From the IMG/VR virus record IMGVR_UViG_3300048035_000179, positions 1 to 64,000 of that record: a stretch of 64,000 bases of DNA; one strand, given 5' to 3'. How positions within the stretch are numbered: the first letter of the stretch is position 1; each line of letters starts with the position of its first letter. The stretch is from a virus. This document shows, in pieces, positions 51,927 to 61,804 of the stretch. Under the pieces are notes generated by a model. It was not told the DNA's origin. It was given only the letters and a program-made list of their open reading frames with translations, and ran no database searches. The translations under genes were made by a program, and so were the position numbers.

Positions 51927-52471
51927 GATTTTACTTGTTTTGGGGTGTCATATCTATATCTACGTTTGTCTATCTTAAACTCGTAGTACTTATTTCTCTC
52001 GTTTATCGTTACTAGGTTCCACTCCTTTATATCTTCCTTCTTAAAGTTTAGTAAAACATACCTTTGTCCCGATAAGAATAATACAAACAATACATAGTCA
52101 ACATCTAACTTATCAATAGTAAACATGTTTACTTTGAGTGATCTCTCACAACCCTTAACATCAATCTTTTTGTCGTTAACCACTAAGTCAGCATCACTAA
52201 CACCTTTCTCCTTAACAAAGGCTGAAGTTGTATAGTTTGTCCCTTTTAAATCAAAGTTATGACGAACTAGTAACTCCGCTAGTATACCCTTAAAGTCTGT
52301 GTAAAATTCGTTGTCGACTGGGTGGTCAAACAATATTGGGTGTTTGTATTCATATTTTCTAGACTTCCAATAAAGTTTCTTGTAATGATCTCTATTAGCC
52401 ATAACTCTAGTATCAACATAAAGTCTAGCGTGATCAAATATACATTTTGGTATTTCAAATGGTCCCTCCAA
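51923..52471 (-). CDS. PD-(D/E)XK-like nuclease, 182 aa
   Basis: The order of residues matches the nuclease core: E in FKGILAELLVRHNF, D in VSDADLVVND, and D-x-K in KKIDVKGCE, followed by a strand DVDYVLFVLFLSG. It may cut DNA in host degradation, repair or defence against other phages. It overlaps the GroES-like gene by 17 nt. Confidence 0.65.
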   Translation of the reverse strand: MEGPFEIPKCIFDHARLYVDTRVMANRDHYKKLYWKSRKYEYKHPILFDHPVDNEFYTDFKGILAELLVRHNFDLKGTNYTTSAFVKEKGVSDADLVVNDKKIDVKGCERSLKVNMFTIDKLDVDYVLFVLFLSGQRYVLLNFKKEDIKEWNLVTINERNKYYEFKIDKRRYRYDTPKQVKS

Positions 52472-53054
52472 TAATCTTTCCTAATAAATCATCCTGTCTC
52501 ATCACGTAATAATCAACTCCCTCGATTTTGTTTAGAAAAGCATTTCTTTCATGAAACCTTACCTTATCTCCACTAACCAAACCCAGTTCATCCTTGCCCT
52601 TTAGTGGTAGACTTATATGCCTTACATAACCCTCGGTCTCACTCTTCTTAGGTACGCCTACATATATAGACCCTATCTTCTCCTCAACCTCATCAGGTTC
52701 CACTAATACATGATTGGAAATAGCAGTAAGACTTCCGCTCCTCACAAAACAAAAGCATTCTTCTAAATCGACAAGGTAGACGTCACTCTCTCCAGTTACA
52801 AGATTATCAGGCTGTACAGTCAGATAATTAAAATAGGCGAGATCGCCATCTTGCAACTCCTGTTTGATCCAATCCCCTCTTGTGTTTTTACACCACTCTC
52901 CTCTAGGCAAAGCCACGACCACTCCACATATTGTAACGTGGTGTTCTGGATTCCATGTAACGTCTAAATATAGTTTTTCTCCAGACGAAAATTCAACCTC
53001 ATCGTTGTATTTCTTCGAAATCTTAACCGCTATTTTTTGACCAATCATATTCAT
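52455..53054 (-). CDS. tandem GroES-like co-chaperonin, 199 aa
   Basis: Two GroES-type halves. The C-terminal half (about 110-197) is clear: AISNHVLVEPDEVEEKIGSI, then TEGYVRHISLPLKG, LGLVSGDKVRFHE and YYVMRQDDLLGKI follow Cpn10 strand by strand. The N-terminal half (about 3-100) has a weaker copy: IGQKIAVKISKK, ICGVVVALPRG, LQDGDLAYFNYL, YLVDLEECFCFV. Phage co-chaperonins such as T4 gp31 replace GroES to fold the capsid protein in GroEL. The double form recalls plastid Cpn20. The first gene of a leftward early operon. Confidence 0.75.
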   Translation of the reverse strand: MNMIGQKIAVKISKKYNDEVEFSSGEKLYLDVTWNPEHHVTICGVVVALPRGEWCKNTRGDWIKQELQDGDLAYFNYLTVQPDNLVTGESDVYLVDLEECFCFVRSGSLTAISNHVLVEPDEVEEKIGSIYVGVPKKSETEGYVRHISLPLKGKDELGLVSGDKVRFHERNAFLNKIEGVDYYVMRQDDLLGKIIGGTI

Positions 53055-54590: not shown

Positions 54591-54606
54591 TTGTATATTG
54601 CCAACT

Positions 54607-54638
54607 GAACGAGCGTTCATAACGACATATCGAACGCT
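54607..54638 (+). promoter_or_regulatory. operator-like GAACG/CGTTC dyads in the leader
   Basis: GAACGAGCGTTC (54607-54618) is a palindrome with a 2-nt centre. AGCGTTC (54612-54618) also pairs with GAACGCT (54632-54638). They lie just after the predicted start of transcription, so they could be a repressor site or an RNA hairpin in the leader. Confidence 0.45.
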
Positions 54639-54673: not shown

Positions 54674-54946
54674 ATGATGCTTAACAAAATTAACCTTTCC
54701 ACAATTGATGACAATACGCTTGACCAAGCGATGAATATTTTTGATTGTATTCCTTTTACTATTCTAGACCATTACTCAAAGAAATTTAATATAGGTACAC
54801 TTGATTTATGTGTAGATGTTTTATTATCTAATAAAGAATGGCATTTGAGACTTTCACACCCTATGACATATACAACTCTTGAAGATATAATTCACGACTT
54901 TATTGGTTTAGCAAATAGAGACGAACACTTTGTTCCTAGGATTTAA
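54674..54946 (+). CDS. unknown 90-aa protein, first gene of the accessory operon
   Basis: Not recognised. An acidic/hydrophobic helical protein (DDNTLDQAMNIFDCIPFTIL, then TLEDIIHDFIGLANRDEHF). Its stop (54944-54946) is immediately followed by the hammerhead ribozyme, so ribozyme cleavage would separate its mRNA from that of the next gene and leave the ribozyme on its 3' end. Confidence 0.6.
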   Translation: MMLNKINLSTIDDNTLDQAMNIFDCIPFTILDHYSKKFNIGTLDLCVDVLLSNKEWHLRLSHPMTYTTLEDIIHDFIGLANRDEHFVPRI

Positions 54947-54996
54947 GGCTAACTGATGAGGATTTAATATCCGAAACGCTGTGAAGCGTCTTAGTC
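54947..54996 (+). ncRNA. type I hammerhead self-cleaving ribozyme
   Basis: Every core position is present. CTGATGA is at 54953-54959. Stem II is GGAT (54960-54963) with ATCC (54969-54972), starting with the canonical G-C pair. GAA is at 54973-54975. Stem III is ACGCT (54976-54980) with AGCGT (54985-54989) closed by a GTGA (GNRA) tetraloop. The cleavage nucleotide is C54990 after the stem III U. Stem I is GGCTAA (54947-54952) with TTAGTC (54991-54996), 6 bp with one G-U. The open end is at stem I, so it is type I. Cleavage after C54990 leaves a 5'-OH RNA with 10 nt before the next AUG. Activity is predicted, not shown. Confidence 0.9.
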
Positions 54997-55000
54997 AATA

Positions 55001-55969
55001 ATGACAAATAATTTAAACTATTACACTATGTATGTAAACTCAAATGGTCAATTAACAGACATTCACGCTGACCACGTGAATCCAACTCAAGCACAACAAC
55101 TACTTCACAAATTCAATTTAGATTGGGAGGTAAAAAAATTCCCTCTTCAGTTTGAGACTCCATCTTCATTTAGCGATGACTCTAGACTTAACCAAAAGCA
55201 CGATAGTGGTTTTTATGGTGTTGTAAGAACAGACAACAACGATTGCTTTGGAGCATTCACAGACCAATACGAAACTTTTCAGAACTCTGAACTTGCTGAA
55301 CTTGTGTTAGAAATTGCTGATGCTATTGGTCAACCTATCTCAAATGGTGCAGAATTCAAAGGTGGTAGAAAAGTGATGTTGCAAGTTGATTTGAATCCCG
55401 TTAAAATTGGTGACGATACAATCACTAGAAAAGCAACTGCTATCAATTCTCACGATGGCTCTACTTCATTACGATGGGGAACAACGGGAACAACTATTTC
55501 TTGTGCAAATCAATTCAGTGCAATCAGCAAAGAATTAGAGAACTCTGTACGTCACACACGTAATATGCGAGATGCTATCTCTAGGTCTCTACGTATTCTT
55601 GAGAATATGGAAAAAGCAGATAAGTCTTTATTTGAGATATTCTCTTCTATGACTGATTACAAGGTCACCCAAAAACAAGTGAACGAGACAATCAATTTAA
55701 TTACTGGTGTTGATGTCAATATGGGTGAAACCAAAGCACGTGAGCAGTATTCTACTAGAAAGTTAAATCAGACTCAAGACTTGGTGCAATCTATCGTTAA
55801 AGAGATGTCTTACAAGGGCGATACACTATGGGGATTGTTTAGTGGTGTAACACACTACACAACTCACAAAGGTGGCTCAGATAGAACTAGAGAAGAATCC
55901 AAGTATGTTGGAGGTCTTCAGAGACTCGACCAAAAGGTCTTCAACAAGTTTGCAACTTTAGTATCATAA
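55001..55969 (+). CDS. DUF932 phage/plasmid-like protein, 322 aa
   Basis: FPLQFETPSSFSDDSRLNQK, GFYGVVRTDNNDCFGAFTDQ then a long body with NSHDGSTSLRWGTTGTTISC and a C-terminal DTLWGLFSGVTHYTTHKGG match the DUF932 (phage/plasmid-like TIGR03299) family. These proteins are common on mobile elements and of unknown biochemical role. This is the largest gene of the accessory operon. Its mRNA would be released by the upstream hammerhead and is followed by a GNRA-capped hairpin, so it may be processed as a separate unit. Confidence 0.82.
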   Translation: MTNNLNYYTMYVNSNGQLTDIHADHVNPTQAQQLLHKFNLDWEVKKFPLQFETPSSFSDDSRLNQKHDSGFYGVVRTDNNDCFGAFTDQYETFQNSELAELVLEIADAIGQPISNGAEFKGGRKVMLQVDLNPVKIGDDTITRKATAINSHDGSTSLRWGTTGTTISCANQFSAISKELENSVRHTRNMRDAISRSLRILENMEKADKSLFEIFSSMTDYKVTQKQVNETINLITGVDVNMGETKAREQYSTRKLNQTQDLVQSIVKEMSYKGDTLWGLFSGVTHYTTHKGGSDRTREESKYVGGLQRLDQKVFNKFATLVS

Positions 55970-55991
55970 GCAAACTAACCAATCGCTAATG

Positions 55992-56013
55992 CCTTGCACA
56001 GAAATGTGCGAGG
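55992..56013 (+). ncRNA. GNRA-capped hairpin downstream of DUF932
   Basis: CCTTGCACA (55992-56000), tetraloop GAAA (56001-56004), TGTGCGAGG (56005-56013): nine pairs with one T-G. It is followed by a short T-run and a GGCA/TGCC mini-hairpin near 56030. It may be a weak terminator, a 3'-end stabiliser for the DUF932 RNA, or part of a larger RNA element. It also shows that ATG 55989, inside this structure, is unlikely to be a start codon. Confidence 0.5.
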
Positions 56014-56060
56014 TTTTGGTGGTAAAGGGCAATAATGCCATATCATTTAAACTATATAAT

Positions 56061-57102: not shown

Positions 57103-57678
57103 ATGGCAAATAACTGCAACAATTGGATAAGTTTTGTCGGTAGCAAAACTTCCCTTAAGAGACTAGAAAAGAAACTTAAAACTTATGACAAATCTAAATA
57201 CTTTACAGAGTGGAGCGAGTATGTTATAGGAATAGGTGAACTTGATGGAGGAGAAGGTTTCAAATTGAAATATGGAACTGACCATAATGTATATTATATG
57301 TATGGAACTAGATGGTTTGATTTCTTCATTGAGGAAGAGGATAACCTTTTAAGAGTATATGGGGATTCTGCTTGGTCGCCCCCAATCAAATTTGTAGAGG
57401 AGGTTTGTAAAAAATTTAAACTCAAGGCTGAAATGGATTACGAGGAGTGTGGATGTGACTTTGGAGGTCGAGCATTTTTTGATGAACAAGGAATTATCGA
57501 ACGAAAAGATTATTCATATGATCATTGGAGATACATAGATAATTATGAGGGATGGGAAGATGAATTATCTGATAGATTTGCTGACGAGGATTTGTCTTTG
57601 GAAGAGGCTTTGGAAGAACACCCTTATGCAAAAAAAGAAGAAATAGAAAAAATATATAATAAATCAAAAACTATATAA
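57103..57678 (+). CDS. YubB/DUF1281-like ferredoxin-fold protein, 191 aa
   Basis: MANNCNNWISFVGSKTSLKR, YGTRWFDFFIEEEDN, YGDSAWSPPIKFVEEVCKKF and YEECGCDFGG follow the pattern of the YubB ferredoxin-like/DUF1281 family, found on plasmids and phages. The family role is unknown. The last ~55 residues are acidic and helical. Start set by the AAAACTATATAAGATG motif. Confidence 0.7.
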   Translation: MANNCNNWISFVGSKTSLKRLEKKLKTYDKSKYFTEWSEYVIGIGELDGGEGFKLKYGTDHNVYYMYGTRWFDFFIEEEDNLLRVYGDSAWSPPIKFVEEVCKKFKLKAEMDYEECGCDFGGRAFFDEQGIIERKDYSYDHWRYIDNYEGWEDELSDRFADEDLSLEEALEEHPYAKKEEIEKIYNKSKTI

Positions 57679-61252: not shown

Positions 61253-61804
61253 ATGACAAATAATATGAAACTACAGTTAGACGCTGTGGTAAAGACAATT
61301 AATGCTGTAACAGGAGCAGATGTAACTGCTAAAGACAGACACAGAGATAATGTAGATGCTAGATTAATTTTCTACAAAGTAGCAAGAGATATATTTAATA
61401 TTTCATATACTAAAATAGGCACATACTTAGGTAAGCATCACGCAACTGTTTTACATGGACTTAAACAGTTTGATAATATTTATGATCAAGATAAAGGATT
61501 ACGAAATTGTTATGAAGCAGTTATTAATTTATTAGATCAAACCGATCTTGACGAATACATTGTAGAAAGCAAAGATTTAGTAGTTAAATATGTTCAAGAA
61601 AAAAATGCACACCTTTTGTTGAAGCAAAAACATAAAGTTTTTAATGAAAAAATAGAGGATAAGGCTTATGAATATATAACAAATATGATTTCTGAATTTC
61701 GTTCCACAACACTTGAAAGAATTTTGCTTGACAGGAGTGTTCCACATAAATTATCAAATATTCTTGTAGAAGCCTTGGAAAGCAGAGATAAAACAGTATA
61801 TTGA
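61253..61804 (+). CDS. DnaA domain-IV-like DNA-binding protein, 183 aa
   Basis: Residues about 28-75 match DnaA domain IV: ARLIFYKVARDIFNISYTKI then GTYLGKHHATVLHGLKQF. R37 aligns with the minor-groove arginine (E. coli R399). KHHAT replaces the RDHTT signature, keeping the key His and the last Thr. No AAA+ ATPase is present. The remaining ~105 residues are helical and unknown. It should bind DnaA boxes without ATP-driven origin melting, and could compete with host DnaA or act as a repressor. Boxes of the right type lie at 54559-54581. Confidence 0.8.
   Translation: MTNNMKLQLDAVVKTINAVTGADVTAKDRHRDNVDARLIFYKVARDIFNISYTKIGTYLGKHHATVLHGLKQFDNIYDQDKGLRNCYEAVINLLDQTDLDEYIVESKDLVVKYVQEKNAHLLLKQKHKVFNEKIEDKAYEYITNMISEFRSTTLERILLDRSVPHKLSNILVEALESRDKTVY

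Follow-up and report, generated by a model that had tools for sequence, protein, structure and literature searches.

A type I hammerhead ribozyme at a phage gene junction as a likely gene separator

The window, by which we mean the whole 64,000-nt stretch of viral DNA that was analyzed, carries on its plus strand a small gene of 90 amino acids (gene 54674, 54674–54946), followed by a type I hammerhead ribozyme with an open stem I (54947–54996) and a DUF932 gene (55028–55969; Pfam PF06067, E 4.1e-20). Searches for families and for relatives of gene 54674 returned neither. Upstream of it, a palindrome (TGAACGANNGTTCA) lies within a promoter-like region, at 54606–54619 on the plus strand (TGAACGAGCGTTCA), and a scan of the region for terminators and sigma-70 promoters gave nothing that exceeds chance. 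The same phage encodes a GroES-like protein (52455–53054), an Api92-like protein (DUF1281_C, 57103–57678) and a protein with a DnaA C-terminal domain (61253–61804).

The hammerhead was identified by direct reading, folding and a covariance model. Stem I is formed by GGCTAA (54947–54952) and by TTAGTC, read directly at 54991–54996, with one G-U pair, and the upstream stop codon of gene 54674 (TAA) abuts its first nucleotide (distance 0), directly behind the gene as had been proposed. The core elements CTGATGA (54953–54959) and GAA (54973–54975) are both invariant in an alignment of 32 sequences. Between them lies stem II (GGAT/ATCC, 54960–54972), capped by a TTAAT pentaloop that matches the common T-N-A-A-T pattern, and they are followed by stem III (ACGCT/AGCGT with the GNRA loop GTGA, 54976–54989), for which fold and covariation agree. 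C17 is at 54990, so that by the hammerhead consensus position cleavage is predicted between 54990 and 54991, as the original prediction had placed it. The window copy therefore has the core CUGANGA...GAA with H17 after U16.1, an open stem I with loop-closed stems II and III, and the core-adjacent pairs 1.1-2.1 (A-U), 10.1-11.1 (G-C) and 15.1-16.1 (A-U) used as criteria by Perreault et al. (2011). A T-N-A-A-T pentaloop and A/AA next to stem I, both present in the window copy, occur often in the class and may take part in a tertiary contact between loop II and stem I. When 54947–54996 is folded alone, the minimum-energy fold is exactly the hammerhead structure (−13 kcal/mol, z −2.15). In a long fold that includes the upstream gene, stems II and III form while the 5′ strand of stem I pairs upstream, so that the ribozyme might have to fold as it is transcribed in order to be active. 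Reading, fold and covariation thus bear out the complete core, three stems and GNRA loop of the original prediction, and at the level of sequence we regard 54947–54996 as a confirmed type I hammerhead with correct coordinates and cut site.

The start of the downstream gene differs from that in the open reading frame list, which places it at 55001. DUF932 homologs in ten relatives (L001–L009 and L011) begin with MY(V/L/I)N, and nearly all have in-frame stops just upstream; therefore, the start almost certainly lies at 55028, where the protein reads MYVNSNGQ. A message released by cleavage would then carry a 5′-OH leader of 37 nt (54991–55027, plus strand) with AATTTAAACTATTACACT before the AUG, and this leader ends in a conserved AATTTAAACTAT...ATG motif that is also found before neighboring genes. 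The distance of only 10 nt from cut to AUG given earlier is consequently wrong, and the near-leaderless DUF932 message derived from it is not supported, given the start at 55028. The expected split of the transcript and the 5′-OH end for DUF932, by contrast, are supported as predictions.

Several lines of evidence argue that the element is maintained as an RNA structure. For the gapped core pattern alone, with no stems required, the expectation is 0.06 occurrences per window, whereas the descriptor combining the core with three stems matched once in the window and had zero matches in five mononucleotide shuffles of the 1.22 Mb of loci, both strands searched. A covariance model built on 32 fixed-length viral type I hammerheads, the window copy among them, scored the window hammerhead at 68.1 bits (E 2.4e-22) and found no second match in the window. 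In this set of 32 sequences, 99.8% of the paired cells hold standard pairs, 12 of the 15 pairs show double-sided compensatory changes, and the covariation score is 0.730, compared with 0.136 for shuffled sequences and at most 0.076 for slid structures.

The Rfam hammerhead models, with which a search had been suggested as a check, did not report the window hammerhead at their own thresholds. Hammerhead_1 (RF00163) shares with it the open stem I topology, the core and an identical C17; however, the window sequence, with a stem I of 6 bp and no internal loop, scores below the gathering threshold, which is an operational cut-off and not a defining feature of hammerheads. The nearest Rfam ribozyme match was RAGATH-1-hammerhead (RF03152), a longer model of 77 positions, at 14.4 bits and thus far under its cut-off of 56.3. 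Intact hammerheads in the relatives L001, L003 and L011 are missed by Rfam as well, and we therefore dropped it as a judge, since it is too insensitive for this class.

Comparison with relatives indicates that the space between the palindrome and DUF932 is variable. In L009 and L010, the same palindrome element stands directly before DUF932, with the slot empty and without a ribozyme, and the ribozyme is thus not essential to DUF932 itself. A type I hammerhead precedes DUF932 in the window and in L001, where it is the second of two, while L003 (2917–2967) and L011 (2943–2997) have a type III hammerhead in this position and L002 and L004–L008 a conserved hairpin element. In the relatives other than L009 and L010, differing genes occupy the slot, and these elements lie at its final junction with DUF932. 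In L001, two identical hammerhead-leader copies flank a small gene, and both have the stem I of the window, while stems II and III differ between window and L001 with pairing kept. From this pattern of presence and absence, the slot appears to be a site for variable cassettes, with the DUF932 boundary kept by different RNA elements.

The hairpin element also occurs in the window at 55976–56052, in addition to L001, L002 and L004–L008. It is an intergenic element consisting of a hairpin (CTTGCAYAGARATRTGCGAG), KTTTTGGTGGTAAA and usually a second short hairpin, followed by a leader and the AUG. Its hairpin sequences vary among viral contigs while TTTTGGTGGTAAA is constant, and the combination of hairpin and UUUUGGUGGUAAA recurs in many viral contigs, although some of the pattern matches look coding. 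For 55976–56052, no Rfam family and no similar phage record were found; the element could serve as a terminator or a processing site, or could be a new ribozyme.

The placement seen in the window recurs across viral type I hammerheads. Since the contigs were picked by a hammerhead pattern, the following counts, all among the matches listed, apply to contigs that carry hammerheads rather than to phages at large. In 169 loci, a stop codon ends −12 to +3 nt from stem I in 175 of 241 copies (65 of 1205 controls), and an ATG lies 20–29 nt past the cut in 117 of 241 (44 of 1205 controls). Among 263 distinct copies, 197 have an upstream stop at −12 to +3 nt of stem I in the sense direction, compared with 24 in antisense, and 187 have an ATG 10–45 nt past the cut, compared with 10; the stop-ribozyme-AUG layout, with both criteria applied loosely, is found in 179 of the 263 in sense and in 3 in antisense. 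All 73 listed contigs with at least two hammerheads carry them on a single strand, and one contig (L039/L242/G015) has nine hammerheads within 4.3 kb, each between small genes. The precision with which the ribozyme sets the 5′ end of the downstream message had been singled out as deserving attention; it is real, but it is a rule for the class (as the 117 of 241 listed copies indicate) rather than a peculiarity of this locus.

Two contigs are especially dense in hammerheads, G022 (39.8 kb) with 15 and G029 (22.5 kb) with 14, on one strand in each. Hammerheads also occur in Methylophilales phage MEP301 (MW452941.1; L298, 702–753) and in an uncultured marine Pelagivirus (AP013542.1; L299, 849–909). 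A bacterial contig, from a Daejeonella sp. MAG (NZ_JAUXXZ010000033.1; L296, 3800–3856), has a hammerhead with a related stem I (GACTAA/TTAGTC), the downstream context of which is unlike a gene start.

Cultivated carriers are found among the Flavobacterium elemo phages. Among annotated phages, those with the large terminase closest to that of the window are Cellulophaga phages and the Flavobacterium elemo phages, at about 31% identity (31.5% for elemo). A search for the capsid protein in phage records gave no match. The elemo type I hammerhead (L297, 6002–6059, corresponding to NC_062743.1, 16952–17009, minus strand) scores 48.1 bits. Like the window, elemo (Elemovirus) combines a related terminase with a type I hammerhead, a stop codon (TAG) abutting stem I and an AUG soon after the cut; unlike the window, its stem III is longer and has a bulge, and the neighboring genes are others. 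The TAG at stem I ends a small unannotated ORF, and the only annotation over the hammerhead is an antisense hypothetical CDS (gp68), which is probably spurious. The hammerhead region is kept in all 68 matching cultivated elemo records, which come from one host strain. Within five aligned records, stem II changes from GGTT/AACC to GACT/AGTC by two compensatory pairs between near-identical flanks, and one isolate differs only at core position 7, the sole freely variable core base. Our literature search on elemo hammerheads surfaced no paper.

Taken together, we consider it likely that the window contains an active type I hammerhead which cuts its mRNA in cis between gene 54674 and DUF932 and serves as a modular gene separator. 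The ribozyme would cleave the polycistronic phage mRNA at this junction, probably co-transcriptionally, leaving an upstream message that ends, right behind its stop codon, in the folded ribozyme body with a 2′,3′-cyclic phosphate, and a DUF932 message that begins 5′-OH-UUAGUC with its 37-nt leader. Gene 54674 and the hammerhead resemble a cassette inserted downstream of the early promoter region and ahead of DUF932. Cleavage would restore to DUF932 its own 5′ end, such that neither the stability nor the translation of one message need depend on that of the other. Beyond the sequence, structure, covariation, junction placement and recurrence described here, we infer that the RNA is cut inside the cell and that this affects how stable the messages are and how they are translated.

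The idea of transcript cutting by phage hammerheads is not new. Reports of phage hammerheads date back to about 2011, and the general idea is pre-empted by Perreault et al. (2011; PMC3088659), who proposed that prophage hammerheads cut long phage transcripts into gene-length mRNAs. Comparable prophage hammerheads cleave in vitro, and the Agrobacterium tumefaciens set, which flanks ardA, also does so in E. coli (Perreault et al., 2011; PMC3088659). Those prophage clusters resemble the window in having hammerheads at small phage genes in one orientation, for which transcript cutting was proposed, and the sense placement at a junction by which they were characterized is also found here (stop adjacent, AUG 37 nt past the cut). 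They differ in that we deal with Bacteroidota-type phages, given the terminase near Flavobacterium and Cellulophaga phages, with a DUF932 neighbor, and with a class in which the stop-ribozyme-AUG layout is quantified and at least 15 copies occur on one contig. Reviews still call the role of prokaryotic hammerheads an open question (PMC6155905).

Alternative to a function in the mRNA, hammerheads might act at the DNA level as recombination joints that shuffle small accessory genes, the core giving short homology and stem I setting which cassettes are compatible, while cleavage would be secondary or merely keep cassettes apart. The variable genes between palindrome and DUF932, the small gene of L001 that lies between two identical copies of hammerhead plus leader and the sharing of stem I within genomes (see below) are all consistent with such joints. 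However, the RNA fold is under a strict selection, seen also in the compensatory changes of near-identical elemo isolates, that exceeds what a joint would need. The placement relative to stop and AUG is exact as well, and we hold this explanation to be quite improbable.

A further alternative starts from stem I. Across 50 multi-copy genomes, stem I identity within genomes is 0.76–0.78, compared with 0.46 under permuted labels (z 11–12), a sharing first seen in 39 genomes, whereas stem II is almost not shared (z 1.1–1.5). When 5′ strands are compared with the 3′ strands of other copies, 82% of positions pair within a contig and 52% between contigs; for example, the nine-hammerhead contig (as L242) has TTAATC in all copies despite different stems II. 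These data could suggest that the main role of the ribozymes is cutting followed by joining, since a released segment, beginning with UUAGUC, would pair with the ribozyme at its own 3′ end, and segments might circularize or join across genes through the shared stem I. Yet circular or spliced products were sought by Perreault et al. (2011; PMC3088659) and none were found, and one multi-hammerhead contig (L209) has six different stem I sequences, which speaks against a strict rule. In the nine usable genomes with type III hammerheads, where stem III is the open one, it does not appear to stand out, stems II and III being moderately shared. Leader positions are also partly common to the copies within genomes, which fits duplication of the ribozyme together with its leader. 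Moreover, the window has a single hammerhead, so that a circle is impossible there and the stem I pattern concerns the class and not the window itself. Joining as the main role is therefore very unlikely in our view.

The sharing of stem I may have arisen through duplication, with stem I and leader then diverging more slowly; other possible reasons are compatibility between cassettes and the joining of cleavage products. A single open-stem code per phage, by which cleavage products pair and join into circular or recombined mRNAs, or which sets cassette compatibility, is a speculative and rather unlikely extension of this pattern; if true, GGCUAA/UUAGUC would be the code of the lineage of the window.

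That the element is an inactive relic or a chance look-alike, to which only the sub-threshold Rfam scores would point, is hardly credible, given zero shuffle matches, strong covariation, an intact core and the orthologous L001 copy with compensated stems.

For the preferred explanation, cleavage in cis at gene junctions, the exact layout, the interchange of type I, type III, hairpin and empty states in one slot and the occurrence of up to 15 copies per contig argue in favor of gene separators. The comparison brings out how systematic this layout is, and the sharing of stem I within genomes and the cultivated elemo carriers are new leads. The interest of the window hammerhead accordingly lies mainly in a class that can be tested in cultivated phages, and the 68 cultivated elemo records, with their compensated natural variants, make the purpose of these hammerheads testable now.
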